DNA from: Mucilaginibacter sp.
Lineage (GTDB): Bacteria; Bacteroidota; Bacteroidia; Sphingobacteriales; Sphingobacteriaceae
Assembly: GCA_028287975.1 (NCBI GenBank)
Contig: JAQBOP010000168.1
Location: 1-43,991 of the forward strand
Length of the DNA stretch: 43,991 nt
Reading direction: 5' to 3'
Of this stretch, positions 23,434 through 29,297 are shown piece by piece. The notes beneath the pieces were generated by a model. It did no database searches. It saw nothing but the letters and a program-made list of their open reading frames with translations, and was not told the origin of the DNA. Position numbers and translations under genes: made by a program. The first letter of the stretch is position 1; each line of letters begins with the position of its first letter.

Positions 23434-26247
23434 ATGCGCCTAAACAGATTATTTTATTTCTTTGCTTTGCTGTTGGTTTTACCTGTGTATGGCTTTGGGC
23501 AAACTGTTCCTGTGGCGCCAAATATGTTATTAGATATTGGCGGGTTGGGTGCTAATGTCATCTCAACTAATTTGAAGTTTGATGCTCAGGGCAATATTTA
23601 TGTCACGGGCAATTATGTCGATAATAAAAATGCAATTGATTTTGATCCTTCGGCAGGCGTAACTAACCTGGGATCAAACGGTAATAGTTGTTTTATAGCT
23701 AAATATAGCGCCGCTGGCGCCCTTGTTTGGGTAAAGTCATTTGGGGAGGATGGGCGTGTTGCTAATGGCCTTGACATCGACCGTAATGGTAACATCACCG
23801 TGATTGGCTCGAGACCTTCTAAAAAACAGAAAGAGCCCTACGATATAAATATTTATGAGGATGCTTTTATTTTGCATCTTGACAACAGTGGAAACGTGTT
23901 GTGGGAAAAATTAATAGAAAGCGGCAGTAAAATTATACCCATAGACCCCTACGGAAATTATAAATATGATGATATACAAACAGGATATAAAGTGGCCAGC
24001 GACGACGACGGAAATTTGATCGCTGTTTTTTCGTTTGATGGATCACCTGACGTTGACGGGAAGGTAACAGCCAAAGGAATTACTGATGGTTTGGTGGTAA
24101 AGTACGATACTAACGGTAATGTGATATGGAAATTTAGCCTTGGGGCAACAGGCAATTATAGTAATTCAGTGTTACAAGCATTAGTCGACAAAGACAATAA
24201 CATTATTATTGCAGGTTATATCAACGGTACAGTTAACTATAATCCTTTGGGTACGCCGGTTAATGTTAACGGATATTATATGTTTTTAGCCAAGTATTCG
24301 CCGGCCGGCATATTGCAATGGATCAAGATCATTGATGGTTATCTGATTAATGACAACATGAGGTTGGCTTTAGATGACCAGGATAACATTTATATAAATG
24401 GCGCATTTTACAGCCGGGTAGATTTCGGCGTAGCGCCAACGCTAACGCCAACGTCTATCGGATCTCAGGATATATTTATTGCAAAATACTCATCGGGCGG
24501 TAATTTGTTGTATCATAAAAGTATTGGTGGTACAAAATCTTCTATGCTTAACGGTGGCATGGTGGTAGGGCCCGATAACGGTTTATACCTTACCGGCAAT
24601 TTTACGGGGAAAGTCGATGTTGATCCCTCCTCATCTGTAGCCGAACTCACTTCTAAAGGGGCGATTGATATGTTTTTGGCTAAATATGATGATAATGGCA
24701 ACTATCAATGGGCATTTGGCGTAGCAGGTATTAAGTCTTATGGTAACATGCCTAGCCCTAAACCTGGCTCTGACGATGAGTTATTTAAAATTGGCGCCCA
24801 ATATATAAATGTAAACAACAGTAATGAAATATTTGTAACCGGTGGGTTTGACTCATCTGTTAATTTTGACGCTACGGGATGTGGGGTTAGTAACATGACT
24901 GCCAAAAGCGCTGGTGGGCTAAATGATATGTTTATTGTACGTTACACGCCTACAACAGAAAAACCGGTTACTAATAACACGGTAACAGCACCTGTTGTAA
25001 CCGCTATTTGCCCCGGCGATGATCCCGGCCTTATTACCGGAAGCACACCAATTGGTAATAACTACACTTACCAATGGCAGCAGTCTTTGGATAATATAAC
25101 GTTTACAGACATTCCCGGCGCAGTATCAAAAGATTTTGCCCCGCCGGCAATAACCGAAACAACCTATTACCGCCGCAGGCTCCCCTCATCGGTATGTGAA
25201 GCGCCAAATATCAGCAATGTAGTTACACTAACCCTTTCAAAATCTGCAACAGATAATACCATTACCGCTCCGGCTGTCAACATTTTTTGTAACGCCGGCG
25301 ATGCAGGTTTAATTAGTGGCTCTGTGCCGCAAGTCGTTGGTAATGTTGATTACCAGTGGCAGCAATCAACAGACAATATTACCTTCACAGATATCAGCGG
25401 AGCCACAGCAAAAGAATATGATCCGCCGCCGGTTAGTGTCACCACCTATTACAGGCGCCTGATTAATAATGCACCCTGCAGTATTGCTATACCGGGTAAT
25501 ACGGTTACCATTACCGTTACCCGGTTAACAGTATCAGCCGAACAAACCATTTGTATTGGTAACAGCGTTACGCTAAATGCTACCGGTGGTTCGCGGTATT
25601 TATGGTCGCCGGCTATAGGCTTATCATCAGCCGACGGTGCTTCGCCGGTAGCTACCCCCGGTGTTACCACTACTTATAGAGTTACTATCTACAATGGTGA
25701 TTGTAGTACCACGCTACAGGTTAAAGTAAATGTAGTAAGCCGGCCAACGGTTGACGCCGGCGCCGACAAGGACGTTTTAAGTGGTGACAGGGTACAGCTA
25801 AATCCCCAGGTCAGCGTTGCAGAGGGTGCTACATACAGTTGGGCACCCATCACCTATCTTGATAACCCTAACATTGCCAACCCAACCACAAGCCCATTAA
25901 AAAACATCACCTACCGCCTTACAGTTACAACTGCGCAGGGCTGCTTTATCGTGAGCGATGAGGTAGCTATCAAAGTGCACGAAAAAATAATCGTCCCCAA
26001 TACTTTTACACCTAATGGCGACGGTATTAATGATATATTAACCATTGACGGCTTAGACTACTATAAACAAAGCCTATTGACAATTTTTGACCGCAACGGC
26101 CAACAAGTATTCAAAAGCGTGGCGTATCCAAAACCCTGGGATGGCACGCGTAACGGTAAGCCTATACCAATGGGTACGTATTACTATGTAATTGATCTTA
26201 AAAATGGATCAAAGGTATTATCAGGCTGGGTCACAATTGTTAAGTAA
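23434..26247 (+). CDS. Large type IX-secreted surface protein with propeller-like repeats, Ig-like repeats and CHU-type C-terminal domain
   Basis: 937 residues. Signal peptide MRLNRLFYFFALLLVLPVYG. Residues about 40-510 hold at least six repeats of the kind 'N-I-Y-V-T-G ... VDFDPS ... D-x-F-I-A-K-Y ... G-x-x-x-W', an SBBP-like beta-propeller pattern. Two copies of an Ig-like repeat follow: ICPGDDPGLITGS ... YQWQQSLDNITFTDIPGA and the matching FCNAGDAGLISGS ... YQWQQSTDNITFTDISGA. Next comes a Cys-containing PKD/Ig-like stretch. The C-terminus (IVPNTFTPNGDGINDILTI ... PWDGTRNGKPIPMGTYYYVI) is the gliding-motility/type B T9SS sorting domain, so the protein should be exported and attached at the surface. 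Ligand unknown. Confidence 0.92.
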   Translation: MRLNRLFYFFALLLVLPVYGFGQTVPVAPNMLLDIGGLGANVISTNLKFDAQGNIYVTGNYVDNKNAIDFDPSAGVTNLGSNGNSCFIAKYSAAGALVWVKSFGEDGRVANGLDIDRNGNITVIGSRPSKKQKEPYDINIYEDAFILHLDNSGNVLWEKLIESGSKIIPIDPYGNYKYDDIQTGYKVASDDDGNLIAVFSFDGSPDVDGKVTAKGITDGLVVKYDTNGNVIWKFSLGATGNYSNSVLQALVDKDNNIIIAGYINGTVNYNPLGTPVNVNGYYMFLAKYSPAGILQWIKIIDGYLINDNMRLALDDQDNIYINGAFYSRVDFGVAPTLTPTSIGSQDIFIAKYSSGGNLLYHKSIGGTKSSMLNGGMVVGPDNGLYLTGNFTGKVDVDPSSSVAELTSKGAIDMFLAKYDDNGNYQWAFGVAGIKSYGNMPSPKPGSDDELFKIGAQYINVNNSNEIFVTGGFDSSVNFDATGCGVSNMTAKSAGGLNDMFIVRYTPTTEKPVTNNTVTAPVVTAICPGDDPGLITGSTPIGNNYTYQWQQSLDNITFTDIPGAVSKDFAPPAITETTYYRRRLPSSVCEAPNISNVVTLTLSKSATDNTITAPAVNIFCNAGDAGLISGSVPQVVGNVDYQWQQSTDNITFTDISGATAKEYDPPPVSVTTYYRRLINNAPCSIAIPGNTVTITVTRLTVSAEQTICIGNSVTLNATGGSRYLWSPAIGLSSADGASPVATPGVTTTYRVTIYNGDCSTTLQVKVNVVSRPTVDAGADKDVLSGDRVQLNPQVSVAEGATYSWAPITYLDNPNIANPTTSPLKNITYRLTVTTAQGCFIVSDEVAIKVHEKIIVPNTFTPNGDGINDILTIDGLDYYKQSLLTIFDRNGQQVFKSVAYPKPWDGTRNGKPIPMGTYYYVIDLKNGSKVLSGWVTIVK

Positions 26248-26399: not shown

Positions 26400-27509
26400 T
26401 CAGTTATAAACTTTAACCATAAATACAAAGCTCTTGGTCTTTTCTATTTTCTGCGCGTCGCTTAAGCCGGCCAGGGTATTCTTTTTGTTAAGGATAACCT
26501 TTTTACTTAACGAGTCTGCAGGGATATTTTTAATGGCATTTAACAGGTATCTTGATTTGATAGCAAAATGTTCGCCTTCCGCCTGCGATTGCTTGGCATC
26601 TGTAATACCGATGATATTACCTTTGCTATCCCATAACGGGCCACCGCTGTTACCAGGATTAATAGGTATGGTAACCTTGTAGTGTACACTATCACCATTC
26701 TGGCCTACCAATGATGATAATGATCCCGGACTATAAGTCGGATAACCCTCGGGATAACCGTAAGTTGAGATCTCTTCAGCTATATTACTTTCGGCACGTT
26801 TGAAAGTATATGGCACAGCATCCAGTCCCTCAAAGGTTTTATCAACTATTTTAAGAATAGCAATGTCATGTTGTGGCTCGGCATATAATACTTCTGCCTT
26901 GTAGCTGTCGCCTTGTGCATTTTGTACCGACACCGCGTTGGCACCAACTACAACGTGGTAGTTGGTAGCAATTAAACCATCGGCAGTAATAGCAAAACCA
27001 GTTCCGGTTTCGCTATATTTATCAATAACAGGTTTGCTTTTTCCTGATTTATCTGATTTAATGGCATTGATAGAACGGCTTAAGTTGGTATTTGATTTAT
27101 CCAACCTGTCCACCTTATTTTTCAACTCGATAATGTTCGAATTATCGCTGTTATTCATTTTACCTGTAAACAACAATACGCTTAGCACGGTAAATATAGC
27201 AACCGATGCGGCAACCGATATTTTTGAATGATGGTTACGCCATAACTGAACGATCCATAATGGGTGCACCATCAGGTTTTCTTTCAGCGTATGCACATCG
27301 ATCTCATCGTGAATTGCGTTAAGGCGGCTTTCCAGTTCAACACGTTCGCCGTACTGCTTTAAAAGACTTATAAAAAGTTTATGTTCAACAACCTTTCCAT
27401 CCACCTCTGCATTTTCCTTGCGCAGTAATTCAAATTTCTTACGCTCGTCCGGTTTCATTTCACCGTTAAGGTAACGTTCAATTACTTCTAAAAGCTGGTC
27501 ATCACTCAT
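26400..27509 (-). CDS. Membrane-anchored trypsin-like serine protease with anti-sigma-like cytoplasmic N-terminus
   Basis: 369 residues. Residues 1-75 (LLEVIERYLNGEMKPDERKKFELLRKENAEVDGKV) look like the N-terminal part of Bacteroidota anti-sigma factors. A single TM helix follows at about 97-115, then a coiled coil (125-150), then a trypsin-like domain in the periplasm. The catalytic triad is visible: H185 in NYHVV, D215 in HDIAIL and S288 in PGNSGGP. No PDZ domain follows, unlike DegP/HtrA. The start at 27509 (MSDDQLLEVIERYL) is chosen because upstream in-frame codons overlap the sigma-factor gene that ends 14 nt before. Operon and layout suggest it controls the adjacent ECF sigma factor, possibly by proteolysis; this is inference. 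Confidence 0.85.
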   Translation of the reverse strand: MSDDQLLEVIERYLNGEMKPDERKKFELLRKENAEVDGKVVEHKLFISLLKQYGERVELESRLNAIHDEIDVHTLKENLMVHPLWIVQLWRNHHSKISVAASVAIFTVLSVLLFTGKMNNSDNSNIIELKNKVDRLDKSNTNLSRSINAIKSDKSGKSKPVIDKYSETGTGFAITADGLIATNYHVVVGANAVSVQNAQGDSYKAEVLYAEPQHDIAILKIVDKTFEGLDAVPYTFKRAESNIAEEISTYGYPEGYPTYSPGSLSSLVGQNGDSVHYKVTIPINPGNSGGPLWDSKGNIIGITDAKQSQAEGEHFAIKSRYLLNAIKNIPADSLSKKVILNKKNTLAGLSDAQKIEKTKSFVFMVKVYN

Positions 27510-27523
27510 TTTCTTACTCCTTC

Positions 27524-28096
27524 TTATTTTTGCTGAAAAAAAAGTTTTTTCAGCCTTTGCAGGCACTTATATTTTTGCGTTTTGGCATTGTCTGCATTGG
27601 TATAACCAAAACGTTCGCAGATATCCTGCATTGATTTATTGTGGATATAAAAATCCTCCATAATAGTTTTACAGGGTTCGCCTAATAACCGGAGCGCACT
27701 TTCCATTTTATTAAACTGGATATCCCGGTCGCTATGCTGCTCAACATCCTCTTCTTCAATAGGCAGAAATTCCTGGAAATCCCTGATGTCCCCACCGTAG
27801 CGGTTAAGCTGGCTCAGCCTTTTTAACCAAAGCCTGCGACAAATTGAATAAATGTAAGTTTTAAGCTTACTGCTTAATTCAAAATCGCCGGCCTTAACCT
27901 TATTATAAAGAACAATTATCGCTTCCTGGTATATATCCTTAGCATCATCTTCATCGCCGCTGTTATTAATGATTAACTGTAATACCATCGGAAAATACGC
28001 TGTATAAAGCTTTTTTAATGCGCTTTCCGAATTATTTAGTATCCCAAGAATAACCTCGCTGTCTGTTGGCGTTGAATCTTTTAACTGTTTATTCAC
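27524..28096 (-). CDS. ECF-type RNA polymerase sigma factor
   Basis: 190 residues. Region 2 is seen in LKKLYTAYFPMVLQLI ... DEDDAKDIYQEAIIVLYNKV ... LKTYIYSICRRLWLKRL. Region 4 appears as LRLLGEPCKTIMEDFYIHNKSMQDICERFGYTNADNAKTQKYKCL, a helix-turn-helix. It directs transcription of an unknown regulon. The gene is followed after 14 nt by a membrane protease with an anti-sigma-like N-terminus, the position normally held by the anti-sigma factor. Confidence 0.92.
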   Translation of the reverse strand: MNKQLKDSTPTDSEVILGILNNSESALKKLYTAYFPMVLQLIINNSGDEDDAKDIYQEAIIVLYNKVKAGDFELSSKLKTYIYSICRRLWLKRLSQLNRYGGDIRDFQEFLPIEEEDVEQHSDRDIQFNKMESALRLLGEPCKTIMEDFYIHNKSMQDICERFGYTNADNAKTQKYKCLQRLKKLFFQQK

Positions 28097-28322
28097 TACT
28101 TAATACTATTTATACAAAATTGTAACCCATTGCCGGTAAGAAAAATCTAAATTAAATAAATATTGCGTTCGGCCTTTCAATATTTTACCCTGATTATGGC
28201 CCAAGGTACTAACATTATCATTTGCAAACAGTTAAATAAGGGTAACAAATTGGTTTGGCATGTTTAATGTGTAATGTTTTTAACTTTTGTTAAACAAATT
28301 GTACTTATTTAAACGCACAACT

Positions 28323-28574
28323 ATGAAAACCACATTAAAAAACGGCCTGTTGGCCTTAGTTATTGCCGCCTCTTTTGCCGCCTGTAAAGGCAAAGGGTCT
28401 GCTTCTTCTGCAGATTCTGTAAAGACCGACTCATCAAGTGTTACCAGCGTAACAGATTCAGTTAAAAAAGATACCAGCTCTGCCGTGCCAGATTCATTGA
28501 AAAAGGATACTGCCATCAGCACACAAAAAACAGAGGTAAAAACAAAAACAACCGAAACTCATAAGAAGAAATAA
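28323..28574 (+). CDS. Small Ser/Lys/Thr-rich lipoprotein, first of three tandem paralogues
   Basis: 83 residues. MKTTLKNGLLALVIAASFAACKG has a signal peptide with lipobox (FAAC). The mature part is low complexity with DSVKTDSSS, TDSVKKDTSS and PDSLKKDT repeats and a Lys-rich end, so it is probably disordered. The next two genes on the strand have the same layout (MK-x-(S/T)LK-x-x-x-LAL, lipobox, D-(S/T)-x-K-x-D-T repeats). The ATG at 28323 starts the signal peptide; 12 upstream in-frame codons lack one. Followed by a strong terminator at 28596-28632. Function unknown. Confidence 0.8.
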   Translation: MKTTLKNGLLALVIAASFAACKGKGSASSADSVKTDSSSVTSVTDSVKKDTSSAVPDSLKKDTAISTQKTEVKTKTTETHKKK

Positions 28575-28595
28575 GTTCTTTGTAAATTGAAAGAT

Positions 28596-28632
28596 AAAAA
28601 GGTAAGCCGCTTAAAGTGGTTTACCTTTTTTT
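28596..28632 (+). terminator. Rho-independent terminator of the first small lipoprotein gene
   Basis: AAAAAGGTAA (28596-28605) pairs with TTACCTTTTT (28621-28630), and the inner bases extend the stem to about 15 pairs with wobble pairs. T run at the 3' end. Confidence 0.88.
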
Positions 28633-28680
28633 ATTATAATACTATCTGCAAGTATTTAAGGCGGGTTTAAACAATAGGGT

Positions 28681-28688
28681 TACCTTTG
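28681..28688 (+). promoter_or_regulatory. -7 box for the second small lipoprotein gene
   Basis: TACCTTTG, a full TAnnTTTG match, 36 nt before the ATG at 28725. Gives an ordinary-length leader of about 30 nt. Confidence 0.5.
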
Positions 28689-28724
28689 CTATTTAAATGT
28701 ATTAAACCAACTAAACCGTCACGC

Positions 28725-28982
28725 ATGAAAAATTCTTTAAAAGCTGTAGCGTTAGCATTAGCCATTTCAACTTCGCTGTATGCCTGTAGCAGCAACGCTT
28801 CAAAAAATATCGGCGATACGGTTAAAGCAATTAAAGGAGACACTATTACCGTAGACTCGGCCGTGCACGGCGAAACTTCTACTACAACTACTAAAACGGA
28901 AACCTCTATAACTGTCGATCCTGGTACAAACGATAGTACCATCGTTACAAAAACTGTTATAAAACATGCTGTTAAAAAATAA
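28725..28982 (+). CDS. Small Thr-rich lipoprotein, second tandem paralogue
   Basis: 85 residues. MKNSLKAVALALAISTSLYACSS carries a lipobox (LYAC). The mature part repeats short Thr/Val/Asp segments (DTVKAIKGDTITVDS, TTTTKTETSITVD, DSTIVTKTVIKH). The first nine residues nearly match those of the third paralogue (MKNSLK). It has its own promoter box upstream and terminator hairpin downstream, so the three lipoprotein genes look like separate transcription units. Function unknown; such proteins are often abundant in the envelope of related bacteria, but that is not shown here. Confidence 0.78.
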   Translation: MKNSLKAVALALAISTSLYACSSNASKNIGDTVKAIKGDTITVDSAVHGETSTTTTKTETSITVDPGTNDSTIVTKTVIKHAVKK

Positions 28983-29019
28983 ATTTAACAACTTTTATAC
29001 CTGATTATTAGTTTTTTAT

Positions 29020-29062
29020 CAAAAGGTAGCACATTATTTTACAAATAGTGGGTTACCTTTTG
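29020..29062 (+). terminator. Long hairpin terminator after the second small lipoprotein gene
   Basis: CAAAAGGTA (29020-29028) pairs with TACCTTTTG (29054-29062), and inner segments TATTT/AAATA (29035-29039 with 29043-29047) also pair, giving a stem of about 20 pairs with a 3-nt loop. The outer stem has the same AAAGGTA/TACCTTT core as the terminator at 28596-28632. Confidence 0.75.
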
Positions 29063-29114
29063 TGTTTTGCAGTATTAACATGAAAACTATATAGTCACTT
29101 TTAAAAAAATTAAC

Positions 29115-29297
29115 ATGAAAAATTCATTAAAAATCGCTGCTTTAGCTCTTGTTGTAGCTTCTTTCGCAGCTTGTAAAGGTTCTAGCTCAACTACTACTAC
29201 TGATTCAGTAAAAACTGACACTACTAAAGTTGATACAGCTAAAAAAGACACAGCTAAAGCTGACACTGCTAAAAAAGATACAGCTAAAAAAATGTAA
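29115..29297 (+). CDS. Small DTAKK-repeat lipoprotein, third tandem paralogue
   Basis: 60 residues. MKNSLKIAALALVVASFAACKGS has a lipobox (FAAC) almost identical to that of the first paralogue. After a Ser/Thr tract it consists of repeats of the tetrapeptide D-T-A/T-K, often followed by Lys (VDTAKKDTAKADTAKKDTAKK). The DNA shows the matching 12- to 15-nt tandem repeat of gacacagctaaa-like units, so copy number may vary by slippage. Ends with a strong terminator. Function unknown; the mature part is a highly basic/acidic alternating, probably extended chain. Confidence 0.78.
   Translation: MKNSLKIAALALVVASFAACKGSSSTTTTDSVKTDTTKVDTAKKDTAKADTAKKDTAKKM

Follow-up and report, generated by a model that had tools for sequence, protein, structure and literature searches.

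The sigma factor/protease gene pair and its locus

The 43,991-nucleotide stretch of Mucilaginibacter sp. DNA studied here (contig JAQBOP010000168.1; referred to as the window) carries on its reverse strand the gene for an extracytoplasmic function (ECF) sigma factor and, directly behind it, the gene for a membrane protease with an anti-sigma-like N-terminus. It derives from a draft genome of 4.64 Mb that is distributed over 423 contigs and is 89% complete. Observed at this locus are the gene pair itself, the catalytic residues of the protease, a motif in its transmembrane (TM) helix, a promoter motif, and divergently oriented, conserved genes for small lipoproteins.

The sigma factor gene (P0002; 27524..28096, minus strand) begins with a GTG codon and encodes a protein of 190 amino acids that scores 70.5 bits against the TIGR02937 model for ECF-type sigma-70 factors (cut-off 42.9) and 36.4 against the Pfam family Sigma70_r2 (cut-off 24). 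The region 4 (sigma4) model was left unmatched in the Pfam scan of this protein; in the structural model of a 90% identical relative (L040), residues 123-191 superimpose on region 4 of SigL (3hug_K) with a Z score of 10.0 and a root-mean-square deviation (rmsd) of 2.1 over 68 residues. The sigma factor is of the ECF type and is built of sigma2 and sigma4 domains only.

The protease gene (P0001; 26400..27509, minus strand) starts 14 nucleotides past the sigma factor stop codon and encodes a protein of 369 amino acids. Its longest open reading frame (ORF) comprises 388 codons and opens at a GTG inside the sigma factor gene; the ATG at 27509 was taken as the start since it fits the orthologous genes. 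The closest named record for the protease is that of M. corticis (93% identity), in a scan that possibly omitted near-identical records. A preliminary description of this DNA, made from the letters alone, had placed the ECF sigma factor gene and the membrane protease gene at 26400-28096 and had named H185, D215 and S288 as catalytic residues; translations and the TIGR02937 and Pfam matches find both genes at these places, and the coordinates and residue numbers are correct when counted from the ATG at 27509. The unit is nevertheless larger than those coordinates, because a promoter motif and divergent lipoprotein genes at 28100-29297 belong to it as well.

Conservation of the gene pair

An orthologue of the protease was detected at E < 1e-100 in 87 of the 90 Mucilaginibacter genomes (that of the window included), and the three genomes without one are only 70-71% complete. 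At the family level, 185 of 201 genomes have a match at < 1e-60; the remaining 16 show a weaker match or none, and ten of them belong to the genera g61, g64 and g76. Among 395 genomes of the class, 59 contain a profile match that starts at position 43 or before and runs to the end, 15 of them from the same family and 44 from nine other families. The gene pair is therefore core in Mucilaginibacter and in its family, the Sphingobacteriaceae, and nine other families carry it too.

The arrangement of the two genes was inspected at 131 loci, which include some genomes twice (from two collections) and represent 101 distinct proteases. A sigma factor gene lies directly upstream on the same strand at every one of the 114 uncut orthologue loci, although at two of these (L010, L035) the contig stops so that just the end of the sigma factor gene is visible. 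The other 17 loci comprise two orthologues cut by a contig end (L041, L085) and 15 matches to the trypsin domain only or to other proteases. In further families, the sigma factor gene was present upstream at 19 of 20 loci, and the twentieth (L218) is cut by the end of its contig. The preliminary description had named a lack of joint conservation of the two genes as a refuting observation; the surveyed genomes instead keep them together.

Architecture of the membrane protease

The AlphaFold2 model of the 369-residue protein, built from 55 aligned rows, has a mean predicted local distance difference test (pLDDT) value of 86.0 and a predicted template modelling (pTM) score of 0.57. Its N-terminal, putatively sigma-binding cytoplasmic domain (residues 1-80; 27270..27509, minus strand, as for all parts of the gene) is formed by four helices (3-14, 20-32, 34-69 and 72-78), with ten-residue mean pLDDT values of 84-97 up to residue 70 and of 58 for residues 71-80. 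The TM helix (residues 97-116; 27162..27221) coincides with a hydropathy peak at 97-115 and lies within a modelled helix that spans residues 84-118. It is followed by a coiled-coil helix (residues 124-152; 27054..27140), which AlphaFold2 predicts with lower confidence (ten-residue means 48-71), and in which L129 is 99% conserved among the 101 distinct orthologues. The whole protein is free of cysteines.

The serine protease domain (residues 165-330; 26520..27017) is of the DegS/HtrA type. Pfam places Trypsin_2 at residues 169-302 (E 7.8e-26), the trypsin barrel of the model starts at residue 167, and the best Foldseek matches are DegS structures without PDZ domain (2qf0; E 5.4e-13). Structural alignment with VIA-align ended in a tie between HtrA1 (3tjn_B; Z 21.0, rmsd 5.4 over 172 residues) and DegS (2qf0_G; Z 20.5, rmsd 2.1 over 164 residues). 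No PDZ domain is found among the Pfam matches to the protein, and the barrel is followed by no more than some 40 residues, which form a single helix and a single strand. Hydropathy, AlphaFold2 and Pfam hence agree with the single TM helix, the coiled coil and the complete PDZ-less trypsin-like domain that had been described from the sequence. The conserved C-terminal tail (residues 331-369; 26403..26519) was absent from that description; it contains a helix (351-361) and a strand (362-368) modelled with pLDDT values of about 95.

The three catalytic residues H185, D215 and S288 are present in 100% of the 101 distinct orthologues and are invariant in the 55-row alignment, which reaches other families; this conservation exceeds what chance would give. 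A protease domain whose triad never varies is probably active.

Protease domains with the same C-terminal tail (profile positions ~157-363) also occur in other proteins of about 340-770 amino acids (in G397, G574, G369, G489 and other genomes of the class), in which the N-terminal anti-sigma-like domain is not matched by the profile.

The N-terminal domain and the sigma factor

A profile of residues 1-120 of the protease protein was searched in 295 genomes of the class, and it also matches proteins that lack the protease domain and possess other ectodomains. Twenty better-scoring non-trypsin matches (L192-L211) were selected by hand, and an ECF sigma factor gene lies directly upstream in all 20 cases. 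These relatives are mostly 198-308 amino acids long; five measure 640-960 and one 122 amino acids. A Pfam scan that covered ten of the 20 detected TPR-type repeats above the cut-off in four (L192, L195, L197, L206) and below it in three (L193, L205, L211); L196 and L198 had no match above the cut-off. The distribution of this profile points to a wider Bacteroidota family of putative anti-sigma factors with exchangeable ectodomains. The preliminary description had the protease protein stand in place of a normal anti-sigma factor; it is better regarded as one member of this wider family, with a protease as its particular ectodomain. The anti-sigma zinc-finger family zf-HC2 was matched weakly in 14 of 32 N-terminal sequences (best E 3e-4) and is the sole Pfam family to appear in more than two members.

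The structure prediction of the N-terminus together with the sigma factor that the preliminary description had called for was carried out on the relative L040, in which both genes lie in one frame; the intervening stop codon was read as Q, which gave a query of 292 residues. The alignment contained 94 rows, 24 of them joined in the same way and 35 loci entered as separate sigma factor and N-terminal rows. The two parts fold as one body with a mean pLDDT of 86.9 (90-96 in the N-terminal domain) and, in a run for which there was no control, a pTM of 0.82; binding of the sigma factor by the N-terminal domain is thus predicted by the model. A structural search with this model listed sigma factor chains, with no separate match for the N-terminal domain. 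Over 118 pairs, sequence distances between the sigma factors track those of the N-terminal domain (r 0.90; partial correlation 0.84) more closely than those of the protease domain (r 0.75; partial correlation 0.55).

Several findings limit the case for an anti-sigma role of this domain. The N-terminus of the window protein is above the cut-off for no Pfam family, and here zf-HC2 is unmatched too. The pTM of 0.82 comes without a non-cognate control, inter-domain error or contacts, and the arrangement of sigma2 and sigma4 in the model is near that of no solved complex (lowest rmsd over the whole sigma factor 8.1 over 136 residues, 6dxo_A). Furthermore, the distance correlation is reversed in 4170 distant comparisons (protease domain 0.685, N-terminal domain 0.630); it favours a coupling of the sigma factor to the N-terminus overall, not in distant pairs, and therefore gives mild support only. 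A search of PDB sequences with the N-terminal profile yielded no significant anti-sigma structure, its best rows being nuclear receptors at E ~0.1; RslA (3hug_B), listed at E 2.1 among unrelated rows, is no evidence of homology. No FecR domain is found among the Pfam matches up to E 1.

That no known anti-sigma family scores above its cut-off in the window protein, and that no anti-sigma structure is significantly matched by sequence, would fit a view in which the N-terminal segment is a helical anchor or a positive co-factor and the two genes are neighbours merely through co-regulation. We regard this as very improbable, in view of the ECF sigma factor genes in front of all 20 examined relatives with other ectodomains, the recurrent weak zf-HC2 match and the combined fold, even with the latter taken as uncontrolled. 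In our view, the N-terminal domain very probably acts as an anti-sigma domain that holds the sigma factor. The earlier claim of an anti-sigma-like N-terminus is supported by the four-helix fold and by the position behind ECF sigma factor genes, and a different fold is not what the model shows; a Pfam match above the cut-off does not back it. A bundle of about four N-terminal helices and co-encoding with an ECF sigma factor gene (114 of 114 loci) are features shared with the class I anti-sigma factors (ASDI).

Among the relatives with other ectodomains, five loci (L198, L200, L202, L204, L210) present an ECF sigma factor gene followed by one of the 640-960-residue proteins that share the N-terminal domain. 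The protein at L202 contains a cytochrome c domain at residues 341-430 (above the cut-off; Pfam E 2.1e-7), and a role as redox-sensing anti-sigma factor is conceivable from its domain content.

Promoter motif and divergent lipoprotein genes

Alignment of the regions preceding the sigma factor genes yielded a promoter motif, GGGTTAC-N15-GTATTAA. An exact copy on the minus strand (28100..28128) lies before the sigma factor gene, with the -10 element just before the GTG start codon, and two further exact copies on the plus strand precede the second (28677..28705) and the third (29050..29078) of the small lipoprotein genes described below. These are the only three exact sites in the 4.64 Mb of this genome. 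With the -10 element written as GTAT[TA]AA and a spacer of 14-17 bp, the motif is found before the sigma factor gene at 100 of 119 distinct loci, with a spacer of 15 bp at 95. At 75 of the 100 motif-bearing loci, the start codon follows 2-3 nucleotides past the motif, and a leaderless or nearly leaderless sigma factor mRNA is predicted from this spacing. In the window (region 28094-28106), the GTG stands likewise 2-3 nucleotides after the -10 element, as the start codons do in orthologous loci.

At least one exact site is present in 69 of 73 genomes of the genus, which together hold 226 sites, and a reversed control motif gave three sites over 120 genomes. Of 150 sites that were listed out of the 226, 126 are no more than 5 kb away from the protease gene. 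A scan allowing three mismatches gave 7 matches where 5.9 are expected by chance, so that information comes from the exact sites only; when one mismatch was permitted, the motif and the reversed control each had five sites in the genome of the window. Two results limit the case for a promoter dedicated to this locus. The remaining 24 of the 150 listed sites lie elsewhere, two of them in a genome (G058) in which no orthologue was found. In addition, no exact copy was found in the 47 searched genomes from other genera, at least five of which (G100, G105, G116, G124, G129) nevertheless hold the gene pair; they contain variants only, and other families have variants such as GTATAAA.

Three genes for small proteins are transcribed away from the sigma factor gene on the plus strand. 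The first (28323..28574) encodes 83 amino acids with a FAAC lipobox recognized by eye, and no good motif was found before it; the weak promoter-like GGGTAAC at 28240, also noticed by eye, differs from the motif at four positions, was missed by the scan with three mismatches and is not counted as a site. The second (28725..28982) encodes 85 amino acids with the lipobox LYAC (by eye), and the third (29115..29297) 60 amino acids with DTAKK-type repeats. A divergent gene for a low-complexity lipoprotein was found upstream at 66 of 69 loci of the genus, 16 of 20 from other genera of the family and 13 of 16 from other families, and the same filter found none at the 20 control sigma factor loci (L192-L211). 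A relaxed motif lies at most 110 nucleotides before the lipoprotein gene at 48 genus, 16 family and 10 other-family loci and at no control locus; it precedes the sigma factor gene at 68, 17 and 14 loci, respectively, and at one of the 20 controls. At least three loci counted as lacking it before the sigma factor gene (L116, L120, L129) do show it if another start codon is taken. Loci with less than 600 nucleotides of upstream sequence were excluded from the lipoprotein survey; of nine such loci from other families, six (L213, L214, L215, L220, L228, L230) nonetheless contain a lipoprotein ORF, and the short loci L078, L222 and L229 have none. These counts should be read with the knowledge that the filter was written after the first matches had been seen, which speaks against taking them at full weight, and that the control loci offer somewhat less upstream sequence (603-1029 nucleotides versus up to 1200).

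The 98 distinct lipoproteins encoded behind the motif at the studied loci have a median length of 68 amino acids, are rich in T, K, A, S and D, and end with K in 45 and with M in 36 cases. Successive Asp residues are most often five apart (243 instances), followed by six (119) and seven (70); an Lpp-like heptad was dropped as an interpretation, since the spacing of seven ranks third. Searches of the three window lipoproteins with Pfam and NCBIfam gave scores below the cut-offs only (e.g., PG1828 family 19.0 versus 50 bits; MXKDX repeat 21 versus 41), and Lpp/OprI (NF040598) was likewise rejected, as protein 3 reaches 19.4 bits against a cut-off of 43 and proteins 1 and 2 are not listed at all. 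Judged by the motif sites, the targets of the sigma factor seem to be chiefly its own gene and those of a few very small, repeat-rich surface lipoproteins encoded next to it, and we hold a dedicated promoter with a lipoprotein output to be highly probable.

The position of the lipoproteins, as the main predicted targets conserved beside the protease, also fits a negative feedback in which the protease degrades them, and an overload by lipoproteins or by other clients frees the sigma factor; since they are secreted, repetitive and likely unfolded, they would in principle be good clients. Proteins with a lipobox may, however, sit in the outer membrane and thus beyond the reach of a protease in the inner membrane, and we consider this feedback rather unlikely.

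Two of the off-locus motif sites (L239 in G067 and L249 in G063) precede genes for small membrane-anchored proteins of about 130 amino acids that resemble each other by eye and are a possible extra target in some species. Another off-locus site is nearly identical in three genomes (G031:C1:305631, G013:C1:4737392, G017:C25:16141), and the one inspected (L243) has no clear gene downstream.

The transmembrane motif and the probable mode of sigma factor release

Intramembrane cleavage normally requires a prior site-1 cut of the ectodomain, and RseA of Escherichia coli has a VAA end, the same type of motif as that seen here. In the TM helix of the protease protein, residues 99-101 (27207..27215) form a VAA motif that is a candidate ClpXP degron after a cut by an RseP-type protease. 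Residues A100 and A101 are present in all 55 rows of the alignment and are the sole invariant columns among residues 1-171, and 53 rows have V or I at position 99. A precedent comes from the RsgI proteins of Clostridium thermocellum, for which XAA motifs in the TM helix and recognition by ClpXP of the fragment left by RseP are described (PMC12203970). The invariant pair of alanines suggests a release of the RseP/ClpXP type, and of all the observations this motif points most clearly to release via intramembrane proteolysis; we rate this type of release as likely. The genome of the window has one Peptidase_M50 match above the cut-off (G000:C409), that is, a site-2 protease (S2P); this says little, because S2P was found in all 14 control genomes.

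Whether the protease domain itself makes the site-1 cut is a separate question, and part of the evidence speaks against it. No conserved cleavage site was found in the linker between TM helix and protease domain among the 101 distinct orthologues, in which residues 138-166 are 3-51% identical, L143 (68%) excepted; so poorly conserved a linker gives no sign of a site at which the protein would cut itself. Proteins that share the N-terminal domain, and in many cases by eye the TM motif as well, have no protease domain. Such a domain is therefore not needed for release as such, and another site-1 protease can exist. Self-cleavage is the site-1 step that we favour; we view it as plausible and about as likely as not.

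These same observations, the protease-free relatives with other ectodomains and the unconserved linker, would favour an anti-sigma factor whose protease is a sensor or effector that does not cut itself, and the genome contains other proteins with a similar protease domain (G000:C181, G000:C216). In this case, the task of the DegS-like domain would be to sense or degrade small lipoproteins in excess or envelope proteins that have misfolded; another site-1 protease, if such a cut occurs at all, or the binding of a substrate would free the sigma factor. The [VI]AA motif suggests an intramembrane cleavage that is normally preceded by a site-1 cut, though, and the never-varying triad makes it probable that an active protease is already tethered there. 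We therefore consider an ectodomain that leaves its own chain intact unlikely, if less so than the feedback model.

Proposed signalling circuit

Taken as a whole, the data are in our opinion best explained by a one-locus envelope-signalling circuit in which a self-cutting DegS-like domain serves as the site-1 protease, an explanation we favour with some reserve. In the held state, which we infer from the family context and the structural model, the four-helix domain would tether the ECF sigma factor to the inner membrane, and the periplasmic DegS-like domain would combine the roles of sensor and site-1 protease. The latter domain would be activated by a signal from the envelope, perhaps by proteins that are unfolded or by some change among the small lipoproteins. 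The PDZ domain is the usual switch of HtrA proteases; given its absence, this function may have passed to the coiled coil or to the conserved tail. The activated protease would then cleave the stalk that ties it to the membrane, probably with one chain of an oligomer cutting its neighbour, after which RseP would cut the TM helix at [VI]AA and ClpXP would remove the released N-terminal domain through this degron. The freed sigma factor would transcribe its own operon and the divergent lipoprotein genes from GGGTTAC-N15-GTATTAA promoters, and transcription of the operon would restore the inhibitor. In its most complete form, the proposal is a self-cleaving anti-sigma factor in which one chain would bear the sigma clamp, a degron of the RseP/ClpXP type and a DegS-like domain active as site-1 protease, with a lipoprotein regulon that is nearly confined to a single locus and with conservation in at least ten families of the class; a single molecule would then be sensor, inhibitor and first protease of a sigma-E-like cascade. 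This conjunction of parts we put forward tentatively.

Control of ECF sigma factors in Bacteroidota is largely open, and this locus offers a case of deep conservation in which every component can be seen: the sigma factor, its inhibitor, the protease, the TM degron motif, the promoter and the predicted targets. Since the sigma factor appears to act mainly on itself and on the adjoining lipoproteins, the whole signalling circuit is testable at one locus. If self-cleavage is true, the anti-sigma factor would carry its own site-1 protease within a cascade of the sigma-E type. The lipoproteins, which are conserved in position and belong to no named family above the cut-off, would gain a regulator and a first hint at a function in the envelope.

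Comparison with known systems

In the sigma-E response of E. coli, the successive jobs of the RseA/DegS/RseP/ClpXP pathway are carried out by separate proteins. The system described here shares with it an ECF sigma factor, a membrane-bound anti-sigma factor with its N-terminus inside, a DegS-type domain, an S2P gene and an XAA-type motif in the TM helix. It differs in that the anti-sigma domain and the protease reside in one polypeptide, in the missing PDZ domain, in the conserved C-terminal helix and strand, and in its predicted targets, which are mainly its own operon and small repetitive lipoproteins. By analogy, the protein may work like RseA and DegS in one chain, yet it is not DegS, as it lacks the PDZ domain and scores 51.5 bits against the TIGR02038 equivalog model, whose cut-off is 422.95.

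RsgI9 of C. thermocellum provides a precedent for a membrane anti-sigma factor whose ectodomain is homologous to a protease (PMC12203970). This study lists an S1C peptidase-like domain, taken here to be that of RsgI9, among the sensor domains of RsgI proteins, and describes RseP- and ClpXP-mediated release via XAA motifs as in our proposal (PMC12203970). The partners there are SigI-type and not ECF sigma factors; for RsgI9 itself no sigma partner has been identified, its protease-like domain reportedly binds polysaccharides, and RsgI autocleavage takes place in a separate periplasmic domain (PMC12203970). No RsgI model is found among the Pfam matches up to E 1 for the 369-residue protein, and its partner scores as ECF type.

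HtrAw from Brevibacillus sp. WF146 is an HtrA-type protease that lies behind a TM-containing N-terminal domain and, as its abstract reports, removes this domain in an intermolecular, substrate-induced reaction (PMC5359297). It possesses a PDZ domain, and the abstract mentions no sigma or anti-sigma role (PMC5359297). By analogy, HtrAw may be regarded as a precedent for the intermolecular removal of an N-terminal membrane anchor in the self-cleavage step.

Within the Bacteroidota, the Dma proteins are another design for such sensors. They are modular anti-sigma factors specific to this phylum, most of which adjoin an ECF sigma factor gene; their partners belong to ECF21, and a disordered tether carries a C-terminal outer-membrane beta-barrel where the protein described here has a DegS-like protease. 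ASDI proteins resemble the protein described here through a helical N-terminal domain, often a single TM helix, a variable C-terminal domain conserved within groups, and co-encoding with ECF sigma factors (PMC7406223). Their survey also reports that ASDIs stand beside only 6% of the ECF genes of Bacteroidetes, as compared with 32% on average (PMC7406223). The N-terminal domain described here differs in that anti-sigma models of Pfam match it weakly or not at all, and for this reason its family may have been largely missed by the ASDI survey. Among the open-licence PMC texts listed in literature searches, no title or abstract opening describes a Bacteroidota protein that joins an ECF anti-sigma factor to a trypsin/HtrA protease, or a GGGTTAC-N15-GTATTAA promoter; the ECF classification may list the pair.

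Neighbouring gene

Convergent to the protease gene lies a gene (23434-26247) for a predicted secreted protein of 937 amino acids, which contains repeats and, by eye, a C-terminal end of the gliding/sorting type.

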